A stretch of 64,000 nucleotides of DNA from Xanthostigma xanthostigma. Lineage: Eukaryota > Arthropoda > Insecta > Raphidioptera > Raphidiidae. Positions 5,029 to 57,755 of this stretch are shown in pieces. Within the stretch, counting starts at the first letter, position 1; every line of letters begins with the position of its first letter. Both the position numbers and the translations under genes were made by a program. A model generated the notes under the pieces. That model searched no databases. It saw only the letters and a list, made by a program, of their open reading frames with translations, and had not been told where the DNA came from. The DNA is taken from NCBI GenBank assembly GCA_963575645.1, contig OY754466.1, positions 16,346,001 through 16,410,000 of the forward strand. Reading direction: 5' to 3'.

Positions 5029-5812
5029 TTCACAAGTCGTTGAACATACACAGTTGTATAGTGCTACCATACGCTGGAAGGAGTTTTTCATTTACTGTCG
5101 ATACACATTATTCGACGGCCAACGGTCGTTTAGTTCGCCACATAGTGTGGAGCCGGCATTAGAGCTTTCTATTACTCAAATTCAAAGTGCATTGAACCGT
5201 ACAGGAAGGTTATTGACCTTCGGTTTCCTCACATTCTCTGTGTAAATAAAGGATGTTTATATGGCTCGTCTGAAACCTTTAATTTCCATACTCTGGGAAC
5301 AAATGATCCGAAAGGGCGTGACCATGAAAGGGCTGCTGCCATATACGAAAGCTCAGAACTGACCCCAACAGCAACAAAAGAGAATTTTTTGTAAGCACTA
5401 TAAACTTTCAAAAAACTCTAGAAAAATATGTTTTAGAGTCAAAAGAAAGAGGATAATGTATGTTAAACTTCAAGGTAAAAATAAAACTCTCTCACTTCCG
5501 CTCACTTACTACACTTAAATTTAAAAAATTGACAGCTCTCGTACTCTTGTTATTTTCAGCCGTTCCATCACTATAGAAACGGCTACTTAGTTTTGTCGCT
5601 GGATTCGCTGCTTTATTTCGATGCTAGGTTCCAAGCGTGCTGCGGTGTTGGATTTCGCGACGGTTTGTGTGTTCGCTTCACACGATGCCTGTTTTGAAGC
5701 TGAAACAGAACACATACTATGACGCCACGTTTGTTTATGACGTTTGCCCATGTCGCACACGTGACAAGTTATTGTTTTCTGATTGGTTCTTGCTAAAAAG
5801 TCTGCACAGTAT
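5029..5812. other. Intergenic sequence, nothing recognised
   Basis: Moderately GC-balanced near 5570-5760 but without a supportable exon. Short frames overlap on both strands, as expected by chance. Confidence 0.4.
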
Positions 5813-5825
5813 CAAGTACTGGGGA

Positions 5826-6044
5826 AGATTTAATTTAGTTGAGGAACAATTGGAAGATAAGCTTTACCATAGTATCACTAGAACGTTTCGAAAATTATAT
5901 TTTCATTCTCAGGACCTCAGTGATGAAAATATAATTTTCGAAACGTTGGCCACAAGTGATATTCTGGTAAAGCTTATCTTTCAATTGTTCCTCAGCCAAA
6001 TTTATCTCCTTCAATATATATTTTTGGAACAAAACTACTACTAA
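5826..6044. mobile_element. PLE-like hairpin, family A copy 1
   Basis: Two inverted arms meet near 5915. The arms contain AAGCTTTACCA, AACGTTTCGAAAA and TTTTCATTCTCAGG. A 6-bp repeat CAAGTA lies at both ends (5813-5818 and 6045-6050). It is homologous to 10077-10341 and 42783-42935. The right arm keeps GAAACGTTGGCC and the A/T stem, but the upstream core is altered (AGTGATGA instead of CTGATGA), so this copy is probably inactive. Confidence 0.75.
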
Positions 6045-6051
6045 CAAGTAT

Positions 6052-7308
6052 AAAGTACGAAAAATAGCCCCAGCATTCTAATTTTGAAATTCAGCGGAAT
6101 GACATCATTCCATCCAGCAATTCCAGCAGTAAAACTAGCTTCGTGTACAGCGGCATTTACTTCAAAAATGTGGGAAGGCCATATTGGATTATAATTTATT
6201 AGGAATAGTAAGAAATTGAGGGCGGGTTTAACATTTTGAGAAACAATGTTATTCTGACAACAAAATTATTAAAATTAGGCGTACTGAATTTAATTTTGGT
6301 TACTGGTTTGAAAAGTTAACTTAAGAAATTTCACAGCATCAAGTTCACAAACAGTTATAAGGATAGACAGATGAGAGCAGTTCGGATTAACATGGTTTTA
6401 CACAGTTTCTACTCATATACAGTGTTCGTCAAAATAATCAGTACCGAAAATTAAAATTGTATTTAAATCTTTGTTTAACGTCTGATTATATTCTTTAACT
6501 AGCGGTCCGTCCCGGTTTTACTCCTGATGTATGGAAACCGTAATTATACGATCACAATCTAAGGTCATCGTTAAATCAGATTTTTTGACAACCCTTTCTG
6601 CAACCCATTGTTAGTCTAATAAGAATGACTGGGCTAGATAAAAAACGTAAATTTTATTTTTGCGGCGTTTCAGCATATGCATGTCATTTATGCCCAAAAG
6701 TAAAAAGTTTGTTCAAACGTCCAATAAGGGAACTATATCTTAGAGTACAAGAACTAATTTATCTACGCACTTTACTCGGGAAAATCAAAGTTTATTGTGT
6801 TTTCTAACTTTATCCATAACATGTACGTAGATAAAGCAATTTATTTGCTTGAATAAATAGCGTCAAATGTGTAAAATCACTGAACTTGAATAATAGGGCA
6901 AAGTACTAAATACTACTGCCTGTAATTATTACTATACAGGGTGTATATTTATCTTTGACGCGTTAACATAAGTTGTATATTATTATAGGTACTCTCGACA
7001 ACTGAAGTTACAGGCGCCTAAATTAAAATATAGGAAAAACGACACCTGTAGTTTATTTTCATGTGAATTTTTCAAATATATATTTGTGAGTTTCTAGAAT
7101 TTTCGTCAATCTGTCTGTCTATACGAACATTTCTTGAAAATATATTATAAGCTGATTTTGTTCAAACATAGTACACTGTCGATACTCGAAATTTACCCGA
7201 CTACGCTCGATCTAAGATTATTTACGTCAGAAAAAGTTATCTTAATGTAGGGTTGTAACGATAATCCAAAAATGATGCATTATTTTACCATTTCAACATC
7301 ACAACTGT
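6052..7308. other. Gene-free stretch with one Helitron-like end
   Basis: Apart from the CTAG-type end at 6499 I see no supportable feature. Several short frames lack family resemblance. Confidence 0.4.
6499..6540 (-). mobile_element. Truncated Helitron 3' end
   Basis: The motif A|CTAGCGGTCCGTCCCGGTTTT matches the terminal sequence of the Helitrons at 13001, 25191 and 43296 (all CTAGCGGTCCCGC). Similarity is lost within about 40 bp, so only the terminus remains. Confidence 0.55.
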
Positions 7309-10065: not shown

Positions 10066-10076
10066 ATCGATTTTTT

Positions 10077-10341
10077 ATTGAAGGAGATTTATCTGGTTGA
10101 GGAACAATTGAAAAATAAGCTTTACCAGAGTATCGCTTGTGGATAACGTTTCGAGAAATATATTTTCATCATCAGGGCTTCAATGCAAGTTAAGATGGTA
10201 TGGATTGAGGCCCTGATGATGAAAATATATTTTTCGAAACGTTAACCACAAGCGATACTCTGGTAAAGCTTATTTTTCAATTGTTCCTCAACCGAATAAA
10301 TCTCCTTCAATACATATTTTTGGAACAAAACTTCTACTAAC
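10077..10341. mobile_element. PLE-like hairpin, family A copy 2, with 11-bp target duplication
   Basis: The arms run from 10077 to about 10200 and from about 10201 to 10312, followed by a one-sided tail ending ACAAAACTTCTACTAAC. ATCGATTTTTT is duplicated at 10066-10076 and 10342-10352, so the insertion limits are clear. An 11-bp duplication and an inverted head-to-head arrangement fit target-primed reverse transcription as in Penelope-like elements. The right arm carries a hammerhead-like motif. Confidence 0.85.
10209..10247 (+). ncRNA. Hammerhead-ribozyme-like motif, family A
   Basis: In order: GGCC, the core CTGATGA (10213-10219), one extra T, stem II GAAAA/TTTTC around TATAT (10221-10235), GAA, the palindrome ACGT (10239-10242), T, then AACC. 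Stem I is only half paired here (GG with CC), whereas the copy at 42877-42915 pairs fully. The canonical hammerhead consensus has no nucleotide between CUGANGA and stem II. Activity is therefore unproven. Confidence 0.5.
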
Positions 10342-10539
10342 ATCGATTTTTTTAGTTTTCAACAGATCCGGCTTAAACCGGCAAAATTAATATTCTTCTA
10401 ATACACAGGTGGTTAAAAAATATGTTCAGATATTTTGTCCATTTATGCTGGATTATAAGGACTTCAAAACGATTTTTTCTAATATTTCGAAATGTGAATT
10501 TTGACGTCAATTAGTACTATTTCACGTGTAGTGTTGAAA

Positions 10540-13894: not shown

Positions 13895-14869
13895 CGATAT
13901 AATATATGTGTCGCATACGAATTGTAAAATTTGCCGTTTCACAAAGCGGCTGATCGTTTCATAAAACGACGCTGTCTTGTAAAAAAACGAACATTAAGAG
14001 TATTCGTCCCTGCAAATACCCCCTGCATCCTTCATCACAAATCTTTTCCCCTCGCCTAAAAACGGTTCGCGCTCTTCCGACGCTATTTTTAAAGCTAGAG
14101 GGTTCTGGTAAACGCCAAATGAAAGACAAAGAATCAGACTACAGATCCTTCAGGCGAATTTAAAAAAAAAAAATTCCTGAAAAACCTTACAACCTTTTGA
14201 AAAAAATAATAAGTTACGTAATATTTTACACGTAGGCGAAACTGTTTTTCAAAAAATTTGCCTGAAGGATCTGTAGTCTGATTCTTTGTCTTTCATTTGG
14301 CGTTTACCAGAACCCTCTAGCTTTAAAAATAGCGTCGGGAGAGCGCGAACCGTTTTTAGGCGAGGGGAAAAGATTTGAGATGAAGGATGCAGGGGGTATT
14401 TGCAGGGACGAATACTTTTAAGTCGGATTGTCATCACAATTGCATTTTTGCAATGCGGCTGGCCACGTGTAGCTGTCTTATAAAGTGGCGGAAATGTTAG
14501 TACTTTTATTACCCGACTGCGGTGAAACAAAAGGAGGGTTATGAGTTTCACCGGTATCTATCTATTGCCTCATAACTTCTCAACTACTTTTCATAACTTG
14601 ACAAATGAGGTATCGTTGGAAGCGTTTTGATCGTCCGATGGTTATAGGCTGTGTGACGTCACATTAAATTAAATATGGTGCCCTCTAGAGAACATAAAAT
14701 CATGAACTAAAAAAAAATATTTAATAATGCCGTGTTTGGTATCAAACGAAAGGGCTTAATTAGCACATTTTAATTATATTTTTTATTAAACGGCGCATTT
14801 TTATTAAACGTCTAGCCGCTTTATAAAGCGGCAAAAATTACAATTCGCCTGTGACATATTATATATCGC
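13895..14869. mobile_element. Long-TIR element Z with nested 168-bp foldback and iterated small hairpins
   Basis: Outer inverted repeats carry CGAATTGTAA then TGCCG..AAAGCGGC at 13915-13960 and mirror them at 14815-14860. Inside, arms 13994-14161 and 14254-14421 form a near-perfect foldback. Short hairpins of one design recur near both ends: GCCGTTTCACAAAGCGGC, TCGTTTCATAAAACGA and CCGCTTTATAAAGCGG. There is no coding region. Superfamily and target duplication are unresolved. Confidence 0.75.
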
Positions 14870-15214: not shown

Positions 15215-16190
15215 GAAGTTATGTGTCACCGGTAATTGCTCGTATTCCTCTATCACTTGGGAGTCGAAAATGCGTCATTTTCGAGAAAATCTATATCGGT
15301 TTTCTTTTTGGAAAAATCAGAATTTTGGTTAAAAATTTATAAAGAAGTCTCACTTTTGGTCTGAATTTTTCCATGACCTGATAGCTTACGAAAATTGGCC
15401 AACCTTTCTAAAGCTGAAAACCACGAAATTTACTGTTAGATTAAATGTTGTGTGTTAAAACTTACAATAAATAAAGAAATAAAAATTCTTCACAGAACTG
15501 TTATTATCATAAAAAAATTGGTTGTCTGTAAAGTCGGTTTACGGACGATAGTTTTACGTGATAACGTATTCCGTAATACATAACCTAAACCTCCCAAAAT
15601 TTGGTTTCAATCCGCTTATCCTTGGTGTCGGAATGATAAGAAATGTCAAAAGTGACGTTTGCAACTGTCAAAGTATTATGTTCTAATAATAATTAGTTAT
15701 TCCAATACTTAACTTAGAAGGCGTTGCATTTCACAAAATACTAATGTCAAAAAATTGAATTAAACATTAGAAATTCAGCCGTTTTCATGTTGCATTTATA
15801 CAGCTATTTTTCTATATAAATTTGTATAAAAAAACTGTTTAGGCAAATTCTGTTATACGAAATCTATGTAAAATGTTCTCCTCTTTCGTTTAAGACTGGT
15901 TTCAAACCGATCTGATTTAAATTGAGCGAGAAATTAGCAAAAACCACGCACAGGGTCAGGCGGAACGTTACGCGTTAGGAACGTTACGCGTTACGAACGT
16001 TACACTTTTTTGAACATGCAGCCGGTGTTTTATCAATTTATAAGATTGGTGATTCATCAATTTATAAGACGTTATCACGTCAAAAAAAGTTGCATATCCG
16101 ATCCCCAAGTGATAGAGGTTTAATCATTCCAAATTAGTAAGATTTTCTTCTCAAGAGAGGAATACGGGCAATTACCGGTCACCCCATATA
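15215..16190. repeat. Foldback L, interrupted by repeat H copy 1
   Basis: CACCGGTAATTGCTCGTATT at 15228 is mirrored by AATACGGGCAATTACCGGT near 16160, and CTATCACTTGGG by CCCAAGTGATAG near 16102. The right arm has about 40 extra bases bounded by CCTCT repeats that the left arm lacks, consistent with a slippage deletion in the left arm. Repeat H lies between the arms. Confidence 0.6.
15517..16086 (+). mobile_element. Repeat H, copy 1
   Basis: One end is ATTGGTTGTCTGTAAAGTCG and the other TTATAAGACGTTATCACGTC. ACGTGATAACGT occurs in opposite orientation near each end. The element is flanked by A-runs on both sides, as are the other three copies (31796, 37548, 38105). A tandem of ACGTTACGCGTT lies before the right end. 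It encodes nothing. Confidence 0.8.
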
Positions 16191-30699: not shown

Positions 30700-30936
30700 A
30701 GTGAAAAGCAGAGGGCGTTTGGGCGGAGTTCTTTAAAAAACAATTACGGGGCGTGTCGATGCGATGACTTTTTTTCAGCAATGAAAAGGGTAGGGCGTTT
30801 GGGAGAGTTCTTTAACAAACAATAACGGGATCGTGTCGATGTGATGACGTTTTTTTGCGCATTAAAAAGAGGAGGGCGTTTGGGGGAAGCTCTTTAAAAA
30901 ACTGTAAAGTGTCGTGTCGATGCGATGGCGTTTTTA
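30700..30936 (+). repeat. Minisatellite, ~80-bp unit, about 3 copies
   Basis: GTGAAAAGCAGAGGGCGTTT starts units at about 30700, 30780 and 30860, each with AGTTCTTTAAAAAA and GTGTCGATGCGATG. It is the same unit family as 1807-2282 but with its own substitutions. Confidence 0.9.
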
Positions 30937-32819: not shown

Positions 32820-33238
32820 ATTTTCACCAATTTCCCGAAGTCTGATTAATTTGAAACTTTGCATACGTATCAAGGACCGATGACAATGCAATAATTTGAT
32901 AACAGTTTCCCATTATCCTTATTAGGACCCCCAGGATTAATAAATTCTTTTATAGATCCTCTGTAGTAAACGCTTTATTTTCACCTATTTCCCGAAGTCT
33001 GATTAATTTGAAACTTTGCATACGTATCAAGGACCGATGACAATGCAATAATTTGATAACAGTTTCCCATTATCCTTATTAGGACCCCCAGGATTAATAA
33101 ATTCTTTTATAGATCCTCAGATTAATTTGAAACTTTGCATACGTATCAAGGACCGATGACAATGCAATAATTTGATAACAGTTTCCCATTATCCTTATTA
33201 GGACCCCCAGGATTAATAAATTCTTTTATAGATCCTCA
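32820..33238 (+). repeat. Recent tandem triplication, 157- and 119-bp units
   Basis: GATTAATTTGAAACTTTGCA starts at 32844, 33001 and 33120, and 118 bp after each start are essentially identical. The third unit lacks the ~38-bp spacer (CTGTAGTAAACGC onward). A (ATGT)n run precedes the array. The near identity implies very recent duplication or an assembly artefact. Confidence 0.92.
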
Positions 33239-33424: not shown

Positions 33425-33619
33425 AGAGAAGTACAATATGATTTATGAGATTAACAAACGAATCAATATTTCAATAAAACTATAGTGGCTTTGAATCTCA
33501 CCTCCGCCCTTGAATGAAAACAATGTAAAACTTAGCCGTAGGTACGCGTAAAAACTGTGCCGCTTATATTGTCAAACTGTAATTAGTATTAGTCACTCCT
33601 TACAACTTCCGAATTAAAC

Positions 33620-33840
33620 AATAGTTCCAAATCTTCTTGATTTCCGGTCTTGTATGCCGTGGTCCATTGATATTCTACCTGACGTTTCGTCTACAACTGC
33701 GGTAGACATTATCAAAGGCGATGTGGTAGCGGGCGAATTTTCCTTCTAGGCTGCTCGTAGGTAAGTGTGTCGACAAGAAGATTTGGATCAACACCGGCCG
33801 TAAAAGCCTACACACATGGATAAACAATAGTTGTCGATCG
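33620..33840 (-). mobile_element. PLE-like terminal repeat, family D copy 1
   Basis: It shares TTGTATGCCGTGGTCCATTG, GGCGATGTGGTAGCGGGCGA and GGTAAGTGTGTCGACAAG with 47740-47890, which is attached to a PLE coding relic. It is therefore assigned to a Penelope-like terminal repeat. CCAAATCTTCTTG and its inverse CAAGAAGATTTGG mark the ends. Confidence 0.75.
33677..33719 (-). ncRNA. Hammerhead-ribozyme-like motif, family D
   Basis: Minus strand, in order: GCCT, the core variant TTGATAA, one nucleotide, stem II GTCTAC/GTAGAC with a 7-nt loop, GAA, ACGT, C, then AGGT. Stem I pairs over four bases (one G-U). The core differs from CTGATGA at two conserved positions, so catalysis is doubtful, but the architecture is complete. 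Confidence 0.5.
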
Positions 33841-34240: not shown

Positions 34241-34827
34241 GTAGTAAATTTGTAGTTGCATCACAAAAAAAATAATGTTTTTAAACCGCAACAACATGCT
34301 ACGCACGTACGCAGTAAGTTCTATTCCAATGCAAAACAAGCGTCCGCTATCGCTGCGTTTATACAGCACACTATGAAAACTCTCAAATACAACACGGCAC
34401 TACAACTAGGCTATCAGATATAGCCACGAGATACAATACAGTTCAGTAGTCCATCAGAACTCATTGCAACTACACGCTTGGTTGGCAAACTGACTGCAAC
34501 TTTTGTCGATGCATGGCAAAAACAGTTTTCCAACGGCTAAGCGGAAAAAATCATCCAGACTCGATTCCCGTTATGGACGAACTATTTATATACCTACAAG
34601 TTTGTATGGAAAGCTCAGTGCACGAGCTCGACTCGGACTTCGTCAGTTTTTTTTTATCTTGACACCACTGACTCGAACCGTGAAGAGAGTTGAACGAACG
34701 ATCGTTGCGAGTACACCGGAAAGACCCGGAAAATTTTGTTTTTCATTATCTGGGCTAATACAGAAACATGAATTTGACTCTATTCAATAAATAGAGTAAC
34801 TGTGATCCATTGAAGTTAATGATAAGT

Positions 34828-35366
34828 TTAAAGAATAGCTTCTGTTGCTACATTGTTGAAACACCCATTGTTACATGTCTACATTAGAAAAATTTATTTC
34901 TCAAACAATGTCGTCACCATCGGGATACGAACCCCGAATCTTTCCACTATCGCGGCAGACTGAGTTACATTACTCCACAGTGACACAGTAAGGTCAATTC
35001 ATCATTCCAATATATAGCCATTTGTAACTGTATATTTCACATCATGCGAGAGCTAATTTTTATCTTAGATAACGTCAGATCTAAGATAAAAATTAGCTCT
35101 CGCATGATGTGAAATATACAGTTACAAATGGCTATATATTGGAATGATGAATTGACCTTACTGTGTCACTGTGGAGTAATGTAACTCAGTCTGCCGCGAT
35201 AGTGGAAAGATTCGGGGTTCGTATCCCGATGGTGACATTGTTTGAGAAATAAATTTTTCTAATGTAGACATGTAACAATGGGTGTTTCAACAATGTAGCA
35301 ACAGAAGCTATTCTTTAAAGTTATTAAATAGTAGTACGCACTATACCGTATGAAAAATTCACATTT
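34828..35366. mobile_element. Inverted SINE dimer (243-bp palindrome arms) with 13-bp target duplication
   Basis: The arms 34828-35070 and 35079-35321 are near-perfect reverse complements around an 8-nt spacer AACGTCAG. The only clear difference is a 3-nt indel. Each arm holds a 72-nt tRNA-shaped head. GTTAATGATAAGT is duplicated at 34815-34827 and 35367-35379, which indicates insertion as one unit by target-primed retrotransposition. About 45 bp between the right arm and the duplication are unpaired. Confidence 0.85.
34913..34984 (-). other. tRNA-shaped SINE head, left arm
   Basis: The minus strand reads GTCACTG to TGGTGAC, a fully pairable 7-bp acceptor stem. It has a GAGT/ACTC D-arm and TCGGG/CCCGA T-arm around GTTCGTAT. 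The T loop is one base too long, so it is not a functional tRNA. Its mirror is at about 35165-35236. Confidence 0.65.
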
Positions 35367-35452
35367 GTTAATGATAAGTATTTGGAAAAAATTCCGTGGC
35401 GTAAGGAACTAAAATGAAGCAATACTGAAAATTTTTATACTTGAAATTAATG

Positions 35453-35487
35453 CTGACGTTTCGATACGTTTTGTATCATCTTCAGAG
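35453..35487 (-). ncRNA. Hammerhead-ribozyme-like motif, family B left arm
   Basis: Minus strand: CT, intact core CTGAAGA, T, stem II GATAC/GTATC with loop AAAAC, GAA, ACGT, C, AG. The core fits CUGANGA and the cleavage triplet would be GUC. Stem I is only two base pairs. There is one extra nucleotide before stem II. Confidence 0.55.
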
Positions 35488-35541
35488 TTTTCAAATGCTG
35501 TCAACAATAATATACTGATAACATGTGACAGTATTTGAAAA

Positions 35542-35579
35542 CTCTGAAGATGATACAAAACGTCGTATCGAAACGGCAG
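35542..35579 (+). ncRNA. Hammerhead-ribozyme-like motif, family B right arm
   Basis: Same design on the plus strand: CTGAAGA, T, GATAC/GTATC with an 8-nt loop, GAA. The palindrome is changed to ACGG, which would break the self-complementary stem III, so this copy is probably dead. Confidence 0.45.
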
Positions 35580-35659
35580 CATTAAATTCTTTCAGTATTG
35601 CTTCATTTTCGATCCTTATGCCACGGATTTTTTTCCAAATACCTATCACTAATATAGAA

Positions 35660-36289: not shown

Positions 36290-36931
36290 TTACCATTCCA
36301 GCCCACAAGTGGGGAATGGTTCTAGTTTAGGTCAAAAATTACTTTTCTAAATTTTACAAAATCTTTTCGTTTAGAGGTCCCCCGAATCCAAAAAACATAT
36401 TTTTGTAAAAACTCTGTGTCTGTTAGACTGTGAGCACGATACAGATCAAACGGATGAACGGATTGAAACCAAATTTTGGGAGGATGTTTGGTATGCAAAT
36501 ATGAAGAGCCCTATTGGTTTTGGGGAAAATCGGCGTATGCACAGAAGAGATATATGCTAGAACGCTATTTTTTATATAATATACTTTTCATAACGGCTTA
36601 TTATTCTATTTATTGGAAGATTAAAAGGAAGAATCCTGGTGGCATACGATCGATGAACGAAGCAAATACTGAAGGTTTTTTTTATTGCATTTTATTGTCT
36701 GACGTTTTGGCAATCTTTATGTCATCTTCGGAGAATCAATGCTGTCTGTTTTCTCAGAAACGTCACGACAATAAAATGCAATAAAAAAAACCTTCAGTAT
36801 TTGCTTAGTTCATCGATCCTACGCCACCAGGATTCTTTCTTTTAATCTTCCAACATTTAAACAGGATCATCATAACTCTAAATTATTAGAGTTATTTTTC
36901 ACATTCTATTTATTTTTTCAAGAAAGTTCGA
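36290..36931 (+). repeat. Dispersed repeat P, copy 5, split by a PLE-like hairpin
   Basis: The left hairpin ACCATTCCAGCCCACAAGTG / GGGGAATGGT is intact. The landmarks GAGCACGATACAG, GATGAACGGATTGAAACC and AGAGATATATGCTA follow. The copy is interrupted at 36614-36902 and resumes with ATTCTATTTATTTTTTCAAG, then is truncated. Confidence 0.88.
36614..36902. mobile_element. PLE-like hairpin, family C, with 11-bp target duplication
   Basis: ATTCTATTTAT is duplicated at 36603-36613 and 36903-36913. The arms share GAAGATTAAAAGGAAGAATC, ATCCTGGTGGC and TACTGAAGG..TTATTGCAT with their inverses. It is homologous to the tandem units at 52193-53388. The hammerhead-like core is decayed (GAA is AAA on the left arm). 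Confidence 0.88.
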
Positions 36932-42782: not shown

Positions 42783-42935
42783 AATAGTAGAAGTTTTGTT
42801 ACAAAAATATGTATTGAAGGATATTTATTTGGTTGAGGAGCAATTAAAAAATAAGCTTTACCAGAGTATCGCTTCTGGCCAACGTTTCGAAAAATATATT
42901 TTCATCATCAGGGCCTCATGTTGCAAGTTGAGATG
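42783..42935 (-). mobile_element. PLE-like terminal fragment, family A copy 3 (single arm)
   Basis: Only one arm is present, from AGTAGAAGTTTTGTTAC to CATGTTGCAAGTTGAGATGG. It is collinear with the right arm and tail of 10077-10341. It preserves the best hammerhead-like motif of the window. Confidence 0.8.
42877..42915 (-). ncRNA. Hammerhead-ribozyme-like motif, family A, best preserved
   Basis: Minus strand: GGCC, CTGATGA (intact core), T, GAAAA-TATAT-TTTTC (stem II, 5 bp), GAA, ACGT, T, GGCC. Stem I pairs GGCC with GGCC over four bases. The palindrome ACGT could form stem III only between two RNA copies, so a dimeric hammerhead is predicted. The single T after the core departs from the canonical consensus. 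Confidence 0.6.
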
Positions 42936-43295
42936 GTAAATTGTGCAAATAATTGTAATATACATGATCATTTATTATGAATTTCGACAGCGTAAATTGA
43001 CTTGGATCAGACAAAAAGTGAAACGCTTCCCCTTCTCCAATTTCAACCGGCAGTTGAGAGGAGAGAGTGAGAGAAACGTTTCTACATTCTCTGTCAAACC
43101 GTCATGCGCAGTGCGTTCTGTGTGCATTTTGTCTAAGCACAACACCATTTGCTAATCTTGAAATAATAAAATCTTCAACAAATGCTATAACCTAAAAAGT
43201 TTCACTTCTAACGCGTCAGAGTCTCACGTTTACTTATTTTTATTTATTTGTTATAGATAAGGTATTTCTAGATAAGAATGTTCACTTATAACTAA

Positions 43296-47735: not shown

Positions 47736-47890
47736 TGTAACCCCAAATCTTCTTGGTTTCCGGGCTTGTATGCCGTGGTCCATTGGTATTTCTACCTGAA
47801 GTTTCATCTACAACTGAGGTAGACGTTATTAAAGGCGATGTGGTAGCGGGCGAAGTGTCCTTCTAGGCTACTCACAGGTAAGTGTGTCGA
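47736..47890 (-). mobile_element. PLE terminal repeat, family D copy 2
   Basis: It is homologous to 33620-33840 and lies immediately 3' of the PLE coding relic on the minus strand. A decayed hammerhead-like motif occupies 47794-47836: stem II ATCTAC/GTAGAC survives with an A/C mismatch, but ACGT has become ACTT and the core is TTAATAA. Confidence 0.75.
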
Positions 47891-48146
47891 CAAGTGTGGT
47901 ACTTCCGTCTTTTATGGTCAGCGTGATTGTGTTCTCTACTCGGTCGTAGTATGCTCTTCTGTGATTAGTCGTTCCATTCAGTGGGCTGATATTGCACATT
48001 GCTGGTGTTCAGGTTTTACTTAGATCCAAACCTTCATCTTTGCGGTTGAAATTATTTGTGTGTTTGTGTATTTCTATTGCCTCTCGTCTGCGTTCGCTTA
48101 TTTCTTCAAAACTATACACAAACGATTTTGATGCGGTTTTCACCAT
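47868..48146 (-). pseudogene. Penelope-like element, C-terminal GIY-YIG-region fragment
   Basis: The minus strand encodes MVKTASKSFVYSFEEISERR, then REAIEIHKHTNNFNRKDEGL and DLSKT, then a TGA. The REAIEI.KH..NFNR pattern is that of the end of the GIY-YIG endonuclease domain in Penelope-like reverse transcriptases. Reading on past TGA (expected TGG of SKTW) the frame continues to TAG at 47868. The reverse transcriptase and the GIY-YIG catalytic N-part are missing. The terminal repeat follows within about 30 nt. Confidence 0.75.
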
Positions 48147-52134: not shown

Positions 52135-52331
52135 GCGCAACAATTTGTTTTTTTTTTCTTTTTTTTTATTATTTTTAAGTATGTCTATTATGATTGTGAA
52201 AAAAAAAGACTCTAAAAATTTATAGAGATGATGATCCTGTTCAAATGTTAGAAGATTAAGAAGGACGAATCCTGGTGGCATAGGATCGATGAATAAAGCA
52301 AATACTGAAGGTTTTTATTGCATTTTTATTA

Positions 52332-52368
52332 TCTGACGTTTCGGCACACTTTATGCCATCTTCGGAGA
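52332..52368 (-). ncRNA. Hammerhead-ribozyme-like motif, family C unit 1
   Basis: Minus strand: TCT, core CCGAAGA, T, stem II GGCAT/GTGCC with loop AAAGT, GAA, ACGT, C, AGA. Stem I pairs three bases. The core has C instead of the conserved U at position 4 in all three units, so either the unit family is inactive or the array descends from a mutated copy. Confidence 0.5.
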
Positions 52369-52780
52369 ATCAATGCTGTCAATTTTTTCAGTATTATTGT
52401 TATGTATAAAGTAAATTAAAATAAAAACTGTCATCAAAGGTATTAAATTACTATTATCTTGAAAGAACGAATAAATTTTTTACTGAAAACTATATAAATG
52501 TGTCTGTTACTTGTATAAAATTATACTGTTGGAAAAAGATTTTAAATCACTTGACACATTTTTATTAAATTTACTAGATATGTAATTGAAGAAACCCATG
52601 ATGAAAGAAAAATGGAGGTCGTTTAAGCCAATATTTATGATTGTGAAAAAAAAAAAGACTCTAATAATTTATAGAGATGATGATCCTGTTCAAATGTTAG
52701 AAGATTAAGAAGGACGAATCCTGGTGGCATAGGATCGATGAATAAAGCAAATACTGAAGGTTTTTATTGCATTTTTATTA

Positions 52781-52817
52781 TCTGACGTTTCGGCACACTT
52801 TATGCCATCTTCGGAGA
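52781..52817 (-). ncRNA. Hammerhead-ribozyme-like motif, family C unit 2
   Basis: Identical in sequence to the motif of unit 1, one tandem period downstream. Confidence 0.5.
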
Positions 52818-53234
52818 ATCAATGCTGTCAATTTTTTCAGTATTATTGTTATGTATAAAGTAAATTAAAATAAAAACTGTCATCAAAGGTATTAAATTAC
52901 TATTATCTTGAAAGAACGAATAAATTTTTTACTGAAAACTATATAAATGTGTCTGTTACTTGTATAAAATTATACTGATTGGAAAAAGATTTTAAATCAC
53001 TTGACACATTTTTATTAAATTTACTAGATATGTAATTGAAGAAACCCATGATGAAAGAAAAATGGAGGTCGTTTAAGCCAATATTTATGATTGTGAAAAA
53101 AAAAAAAAAAGACTCTAATAATTTATAGAGATGATGATCCTGTTCAAATGTTAGAAGATTAAGAAGGACGAATCCTGGTGGCATAGGATCGATGAATAAA
53201 GCAAATACTGAAGGTTTTTATTGCATTTTTATTA

Positions 53235-53271
53235 TCTGACGTTTCGGCACACTTTATGCCATCTTCGGAGA
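53235..53271 (-). ncRNA. Hammerhead-ribozyme-like motif, family C unit 3
   Basis: Identical in sequence to the motifs of units 1 and 2. In a transcript of the array, the three motifs could pair through their ACGU palindromes. Confidence 0.5.
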
Positions 53272-53559
53272 ATCAATGCTGTCAATTTTTTCAGTATTAT
53301 TGTTATGTATAAAGTAAATTAAAATAAAAACTGTCATCAAAGGTATTAAATTACTATTATCTTGAAAGAACGAATAAATTTTTTACTCTATTATATATAC
53401 TCTATTATATATAACATTTTCGACTAATTTATCCGAATAATACTCGAGCTAAAAAAACAATATTTGCAGTAAATCTACGAAAATAAAAAACAATATTTGC
53501 AGTAAACCTGCTAAACTTTTGTTGTCTGCTTGTGTTTTCTTACTTATTATTTGCAAAAA

Positions 53560-57350: not shown

Positions 57351-57547
57351 TGGTCTCCATTAAAAGAGCTTTTATTTTTACCCGATCATATATAACGCTA
57401 TGTCCATCCTGATGGTTCATTCTAAATATTGGTGAAAAAAATTTTGAAATCCGGTGAGTAGTTTCAAAGATTACCTCCGAAATCCAAACTTACAACCTTT
57501 ACCTCTTTGTTCAGATCTTTGATTAACGTCTGATTGGAACTCGACGA

Positions 57548-57755
57548 TAAATAAAATTATCGACCAGTTTTTCAGACAAATATTTTAACAAAAAATATAA
57601 AAATTAATACATTAACGTTTCGGTCCGGATTTGGATCTTCTTCAGAACTGATCTAAAAACTATTAAGTTCTTAATTATCAAATATTGAAAAAATAATAAT
57701 TATTGTTAATATATTTGTCTGAAAAAATTGGTCGATAATTTTATTTATTGAAGTT
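57548..57755. mobile_element. PLE-like hairpin, family E
   Basis: Outer arms ATAAAATTATCGACC and TTTCAGACAAATAT (57550-57590) are mirrored by ATATTTGTCTGAAA and GGTCGATAATTTTAT (57707-57745). A single hammerhead-like motif lies between them. Confidence 0.65.
57611..57648 (-). ncRNA. Hammerhead-ribozyme-like motif, family E
   Basis: Minus strand: GTT, intact core CTGAAGA, A, stem II GATCC/GGACC with a 6-nt loop (one A-C mismatch), GAA, ACGT, T, AAT. Stem I pairs three bases including one G-U. There is the same single extra nucleotide after the core as in families A-D. Confidence 0.5.

Follow-up and report, generated by a model that had tools for sequence, protein, structure and literature searches.

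Penelope-like elements (PLEs) carry hammerhead ribozymes, which Cervera & De la Pena 2014 (msu232) reportedly described as minimal motifs and which are also said to be the subject of Lunse, Weinberg & Breaker 2017. In the hammerhead core, nucleotides C3 and G8 form a pair.

In reviews, PLE hammerheads are said to be arranged in tandem and to have no helix III; their stem III loop is palindromic and they form double hammerheads, and one review calls their role unknown (PMC7761336, PMC6155905, PMC6466107). In Poseidon PAc of Anolis carolinensis, the start codon is located at stem II and the cut site lies 26 bp downstream. Cleavage by the PAc hammerhead requires protein, insertion in vitro is independent of cleavage, and a C3G/G8C double change results in partial rescue, which fits a C3-G8 pair (PMC11167929). 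The Penelope of the rotifer Adineta vaga is built of head-to-head, inverted pseudo-LTRs (pLTRs), one of which can carry a tail of about 31 bp. The TSD of this element is 8-10 bp and its junction palindromes have been ascribed to self-priming (PMC3846280). Animal retrozymes consist of repeated units of roughly 150-300 bp and coexist with PLEs (PMC7229834).

The window, that is, the whole 64-kb stretch of DNA that was analysed, contains five hairpin families, A to E, with a hammerhead-like motif. It is one stretch of the host genome that was also searched (623 Mb, 28 contigs). The motifs are read as minimal type I hammerheads of PLEs, located in 3' pseudo-LTRs and in the repeats between tandem copies, a reading to which we assign a probability of about 0.88. 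This reading explains what the hairpins are and why one core recurs with different stems. The motif class, minimal hammerheads in the pseudo-LTRs of PLEs, is already published and the families are not unrelated.

Architecture, covariation and core of the motif

Both strands were read, and the minus strand carries all five of the motifs first noted. Each has the order that was originally predicted: the core, an extra nucleotide, stem II, GAA, ACGU and stem I. Both stems differ by family and pair with their own partners, also as predicted. Stem II is paired at 5 of 5 positions in A, B, C and D and at 4 in E, a total of 24/25 that is the top of 120 family permutations. For stem I, the values are 4, 2, 3, 4 and 3 of 4 in A to E, respectively (16/20; rank 6 of 120). 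Stem II pairing is far better within families than between them, and the tests support compensatory change across families. The single mismatch is an A-C in the E copy of the window, where the extra nucleotide is A. An E-type copy elsewhere in the host genome has an extra T and a full stem II.

The original prediction had proposed a search with the Rfam hammerhead models and with a model of all five families. The Rfam models gave no hammerhead match in the window, even at E up to 10. A pattern scan of the window for the core, stem II and GAAAC picked up further copies in A2, A3, the B right arm and the C array. The window was also searched with a covariance model built only from A1, the B left arm and C1 (the A/B/C model). 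This model found 13 places at E < 0.001, so that the motif is present in all five families as claimed, in 13 scoring copies instead of five. These include D (22.9 bits, E-value 1.6e-4) and E (21.9 bits, E-value 3.5e-4), both absent from the model and not preselected by core for it, though named in the prediction beforehand. The next-best place in the window has 12.2 bits (E-value 0.44). Rfam microRNA families matched only below their gathering scores, and these matches resemble generic hairpins. One long MITE-like hairpin (14076-14339) has a microRNA-family score far below the cut-off on both strands, and does not match the A/B/C model.

Covariation above background is present: in the 13-copy alignment (11 distinct rows) the score is 0.521 versus a shuffled mean of 0.160, with 0/500 shuffles as high, and structures slid along this alignment score only 0.018 to 0.160. 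Two weaker measures, pairs changed on both sides and further pair types, were matched by 39/500 and 9/500 shuffles, respectively. Because the structure guided the alignment and the copies are related, covariation is support and not proof.

Chance was evaluated using 40 first-order shuffles of the window. Cores with at most one mismatch, ACGU and a stem I of at least 2 bp number 5, versus a mean of 0.0 in shuffles, and exact cores number 5 versus 0.075; an exact core at 33120, without ACGU, looks like chance. When the spacing is fixed, the pattern occurs at two places in the window, both with 5/5 stem II pairs, at 16 places in prokaryote contigs (257 Gb; best stem II 4/5) and at none in viral contigs. 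The IMG/VR pattern scan produced at least 120 stretches; among those listed, 28 have a stem II of at least 4 bp, and 3 of these have a stem I of at least 3 bp. The A/B/C model reached 25.5 bits at best on these core-preselected loci (31 of 120 listed loci scored), so that a score of 22-25 bits is not proof by itself once loci have been chosen for their core. The viral-contig stretch L001:3006-3045, with 25.5 bits, has the extra T.

In the host genome, CTGAWGATG-N8-30-CGAAACGT has 4,823 exact matches (2,380 + 2,443 by strand) and the reversed pattern has 0. The 22 stem II sequences taken from the first 100 of these places form 99/110 pairs, versus a shuffled mean of 78.1 and with 0/10,000 shuffles as high. 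The motif is a real, abundant, structured RNA in the host genome.

A hammerhead has the core CUGANGA ... GAAA, with C3-G8 and stems I and II; the cores of A1, A2, B and E are intact. The cores of the A3 copies are decayed, and in C the core is CCGAAGA (U4 -> C) in all four scoring copies of the window. In D, U3-A8 replaces C3-G8, both positions having changed together, and the resulting TTGATAA is found in 17/17 distinct D-type places in host PLE loci (19 rows, with L163, L164 and L193 being one). Either C or T was accepted at position 3 in this search, and either A or G at position 8, so CTGANGA could pass. The recurrence of TTGATAA identifies D as a conserved variant and rules out that it is simply a decayed core. 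The elements that carry this natural U3-A8 core number in the hundreds.

Stem III is ACGU in A1, the B left arm, C1, D and E. It is palindromic, which makes dimer pairing possible, and it fits the published dimer model, in which stem III is palindromic too. The dimer structure is nested and has a negative energy in four of five units, with E at +1.5. In all five units, taken singly or as dimers, the lowest-energy structure given by ViennaRNA is a fold other than the hammerhead.

These energies bear on the question of whether the motif is a relic, needed by a PLE protein for the RT start, endonuclease recognition or the start/stop overlap discussed below. Pairing would then be kept for protein binding, with no role for self-cleavage in vivo. 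Such a relic would be in keeping with the U4 -> C change in C and with the hammerhead fold not being the energy minimum. It is also in keeping with the Anolis PLE, where mutants with an inactive ribozyme still insert normally in vitro and no reads end at the cut site (PMC11167929). However, lineages whose stems differ have retained an otherwise unchanged core (A, B and E are intact) and the joint change of C3 -> U and G8 -> A in D is expected if the core pair matters. A relic is considered unlikely.

Element anatomy and the link to Penelope-like elements

The minimal-hammerhead reading is strengthened by the elements in which the motifs reside. The A1 motif (42877..42915, minus strand; core CUGAUGA, extra U, stem I GGCC/GGCC; 53.7 bits) is part of a solo arm at 42785..42938 (minus), a single pseudo-LTR with a tail end that was delimited by blastn and alignment to A2. 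Its flanks have a weak, 7-bp TSD that is equalled by 37/400 control placements. The remaining elements of this section are head-to-head and without strand, unless stated. A2 (10077..10341) consists of two arms (about 10076-10187 and 10201-10312) around a 13-nt centre, with a 29-nt tail on the right arm (10313-10341). Its left-arm motif (10141..10179, minus, 34.0 bits) and right-arm motif (10209..10247, plus, 41.3 bits) both have a broken stem I, and its 11-bp TSD is identical (10066..10076 / 10342-10352; 1/400 control placements as good). A3 (5820..6046) has decayed motifs, placed by the covariance model, in the left arm (5881..5916, minus) and the right arm (5913..5950, plus, decayed core), and a 12-bp TSD with one mismatch (5808-5819 / 6047-6058; 2/400 controls as good).

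In B (35368..35652), the left-arm motif (35452..35489, minus, 50.0 bits) has an intact core and an extra U, and the right-arm motif found by the covariance model (35540..35580, plus) has ACGG and a 3-nt loop insertion. A TSD was sought at the flanks of B and none was found. Beside this family, at 34822-35324, there is an inverted repeat (34822-34896 / 35250-35324, 98.7%) with a palindrome at about 34990-35170 inside it. Family C is represented by a head-to-tail array on the minus strand (52188..53387; 449-bp unit x 2.7), in which the covariance model places three minus-strand motifs: 52331..52369 (copy 1, core CCGAAGA), 52780..52818 and 53234..53272. A further C copy, C2 (36615..36902), carries one model-detected motif (36697..36735, minus), a tail of about 49 nt (about 36854-36902) and an identical, 12-bp TSD (36603-36614 / 36903-36914; 0/400 controls as good). 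The E element (57547..57748) has a single remaining motif (57610..57649, minus; extra A, one stem II mismatch; 21.9 bits) and a weak TSD, with 12/400 controls as good. The inverted pairs A2, A3 and C2 have arms of different length: the left one is short and the right one is extended by the tail.

Families B and C are 71.6% identical over 95 nt, beyond the motif. As they share flanks, there are at most four independent lineages. The claim that the five families are unrelated does not hold, because of these common flanks and because all five look like PLE ends.

Similar arrangements occur elsewhere in the host genome. Within 1 kb of the first 100 of the 4,823 places, neighbours are divergent in 19 cases, convergent in 0 and head-to-tail in 3. 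One B-type head-to-tail array (216 bp x 3.0), which lies within C1:10655500-10658500 of the host genome, has an exact core in each of its three units. Five divergent pairs elsewhere have flanking repeats, uncontrolled, of 13 (1 mismatch), 17, 13 (1 mismatch), 8 and 8 bp. The window also contains repeats of other kinds: related minisatellites at 1797-2280 and 30704-30935, with 83- and 81-bp units, and a dispersed repeat at 15538, 31817, 37711(-) and 38250(-), where a short peptide context is common to all.

The D motif (33677..33719, minus; core UUGAUAA, extra U; covariance model) is contained in an insertion at 33627..33820, without strand, that comprises an inverted pseudo-LTR and the last 14 nt of the direct one. 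The insertion ends in a 33-nt tail (33788-33820) and is flanked by an identical, 12-bp TSD (33615-33626 / 33821-33832; 3/400 controls as good). A second D pseudo-LTR, D2 (47743..47894, minus; 90.8% over 152 nt), has a decayed motif, TTAATAA, and no convincing TSD at its flanks. Upstream of D2 is a C-terminal remnant of a PLE ORF (48012..48110, minus) that matches a host PLE ORF at 92% across 25 aa. The D tail has 835 matches in the host genome at up to 3 mismatches, versus 0 for the control, and it ends sharply, since the sequence beyond differs in 20/20 fetched copies. A TSD of 9 bp or more flanks seven of these 20 tail-bearing copies (23/400 control positions), and 12 of the 20 have an inverted copy of the pLTR 3' end upstream. 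Beside family D, at 32820-33238, are tandem repeats of 157 and 119 bp with 99-100% matches.

A PLE RT/EN query sequence gave at least 152 matches in the host genome (best E 8e-25, 55% identity). Thirty loci were fetched, and in 14 of them (13 elements, as L163 and L164 are one) a D-type motif lies downstream of the PLE ORF in the sense orientation. Four loci (L174, L178, L181, L191) have an antisense D-type copy upstream of an ORF piece. In L181, about 450 nt (L181:1456-1905) separate the antisense and sense motifs; this interval holds a C-terminal PLE ORF piece only and is thus a short, head-to-head copy. In a more fully read PLE locus, two frames show YVDD and GIY..YIG motifs, and the two copies that were followed further upstream are both 5'-truncated. 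For the PLE ORF pieces, Pfam (two pieces) gave no family above cut-off and none fitting, PDB sequences gave none at E 0.05 (best E 0.068), and NCBIfam gave a weak RT match only, far below cut-off. As no curated library matched above cut-off, the assignment to PLEs depends on the RT/EN query, the visible motifs and the anatomy. PLE proteins in viral and prokaryote contigs were looked for and none was confirmed. A second group of matches, dozens among those listed, has a uniform 34% identity to the query over residues 85-167, and some of its places have open frames over 560 aa.

Thus, an ORF with RT and GIY-YIG stands beside the motif in family D only, and a pLTR with an inverted copy, a tail and a short TSD is present in A2, A3, C2 and D. 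The predicted Penelope link is borne out by the position of D at the 3' end of PLE ORFs and by this anatomy. No ORF link was found for A, B, C or E in the 30 fetched loci. Five of these loci have an A-, C- or E-like motif nearby; the A-like motif of L173 is sense and upstream and the other four are antisense or ambiguous. A, B, C and E look like PLE ends, the direct ORF link being that of D.

The short head-to-tail arrays (C, 449 bp x 2.7; B-type, 216 bp x 3.0) are also what would be expected of non-autonomous, retrozyme-like units (metazoan, non-LTR), moved in trans via circular RNA and not PLE ends. The published animal retrozymes are of comparable kind in that they are short and coexist with PLEs, as noted above. 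Set against this are the tails, head-to-head pairs and TSDs, which are PLE hallmarks (PMC3846280), and D, which is physically part of PLE copies. In addition, stem III is only ACGU, which is PLE-minimal, whereas the retrozyme hammerheads are canonical type I (PMC7229834). Retrozyme-like units are judged quite improbable. MITE-like DNA transposons, with long inverted repeats and a chance hammerhead-like arm, would account for palindromic, short, dispersed elements without a long ORF, but are ruled out for practical purposes by the unequal arms with a one-sided tail, TSDs that vary in sequence, the solo arms and tandem arrays and the tie of D to PLE ORFs.

The extra nucleotide and a proposed mechanism

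For PLE hammerheads of this kind, the nucleotide before stem II requires explanation. It is present in 13/13 window copies, as T in 12 and A in E, so that A9 does not directly precede stem II as it does in a hammerhead. The extra-U form dominates in the host genome, with 4,823 matches versus 222 for CTGAWGAG. Of 50 CTGAWGAG places, 24 have one extra nucleotide (G), 9 have none and 17 are ambiguous. That the extra nucleotide is always U is ruled out, since a minority have G.

When the extra nucleotide is U, A9-U-G10.1 reads AUG; some copies with G have no AUG at the motif. In D, the stop codon of the ORF, UGA, is U4-G5-A6 of the core in 6/7 rows (5/6 elements) where the ORF ends in HRL. The AUG frame is open to the end of the tail in 4/5 tail-bearing D copies that were translated. 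It closes at codon 16 in A1 and in the A2 left arm, at codon 9 in the A2 right arm, at codon 11 in the B left arm and at codon 3 in C. The AUG at the motif may be used as a start codon, and in autonomous elements it would be, by analogy with the Anolis PLE, the start of the next ORF.

In the proposed mechanism, tandem transcripts would pair two motifs via ACGU/ACGU and the stem I strands, and cleavage is predicted 25 nt downstream of the first base of the AUG in A, B and C and 29 nt downstream of it in D. Cleavage at this site would separate the ORF from its start codon and so must be conditional; it could be protein-assisted, as has been published. Head-to-head copies may arise by self-priming during reverse transcription, as proposed for the rotifer Penelope. 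In such a copy, each strand has one sense motif that faces its own complement, so that a poor ribozyme is predicted even when the core is intact; the A2 strand self-folds at -178.9 kcal/mol. According to these models, head-to-head copies can hardly cleave and tandem arrays could.

Combining these observations, the extra nucleotide might be a coding constraint. The core of a tandem PLE would hold both an upstream stop and a downstream start, and an RNA of 40 nt would choose between translation and cleavage, with D providing its natural U3-A8 core in hundreds of copies. We advance this tentatively, at less than even odds. It would account in concrete terms for the core insertion, which Rfam models missed here. 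More generally, thousands of natural variants in one genome, a compensated core pair included, can be used to probe the role of PLE hammerheads.

Comparison with known systems

The motifs resemble the published PLE minimal hammerheads in being minimal, type I and without helix III, and in being dispersed by the thousands in animal genomes. Also alike are the location in pseudo-LTRs, the dimer model, the palindromic stem III and the tandem arrangement. With metazoan retrozymes they share short tandem units with type I hammerheads and differ in that the motif here is minimal (PMC7229834).

The resemblance to Adineta vaga Penelope is in the inverted, head-to-head pLTRs, the one-sided tail and the TSDs. 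Here, however, TSDs are 11-12 bp and tails are 29, 33 and about 49 nt, and the window elements are pLTR pairs or solo and tandem pLTRs without an ORF, D2 having an ORF scrap.

PAc is similar in its tail and AT-rich targets (PMC11167929). In the portions of the literature available on start/stop overlap or inverted hammerhead elements, a start codon at this position was found in PAc only. In contrast to the 26 bp of PAc, the predicted cut would lie, by count, 25 nt (A-C) or 29 nt (D) beyond the first base of the AUG, and D differs further in having the stop codon of an upstream ORF in its core, together with U3-A8.
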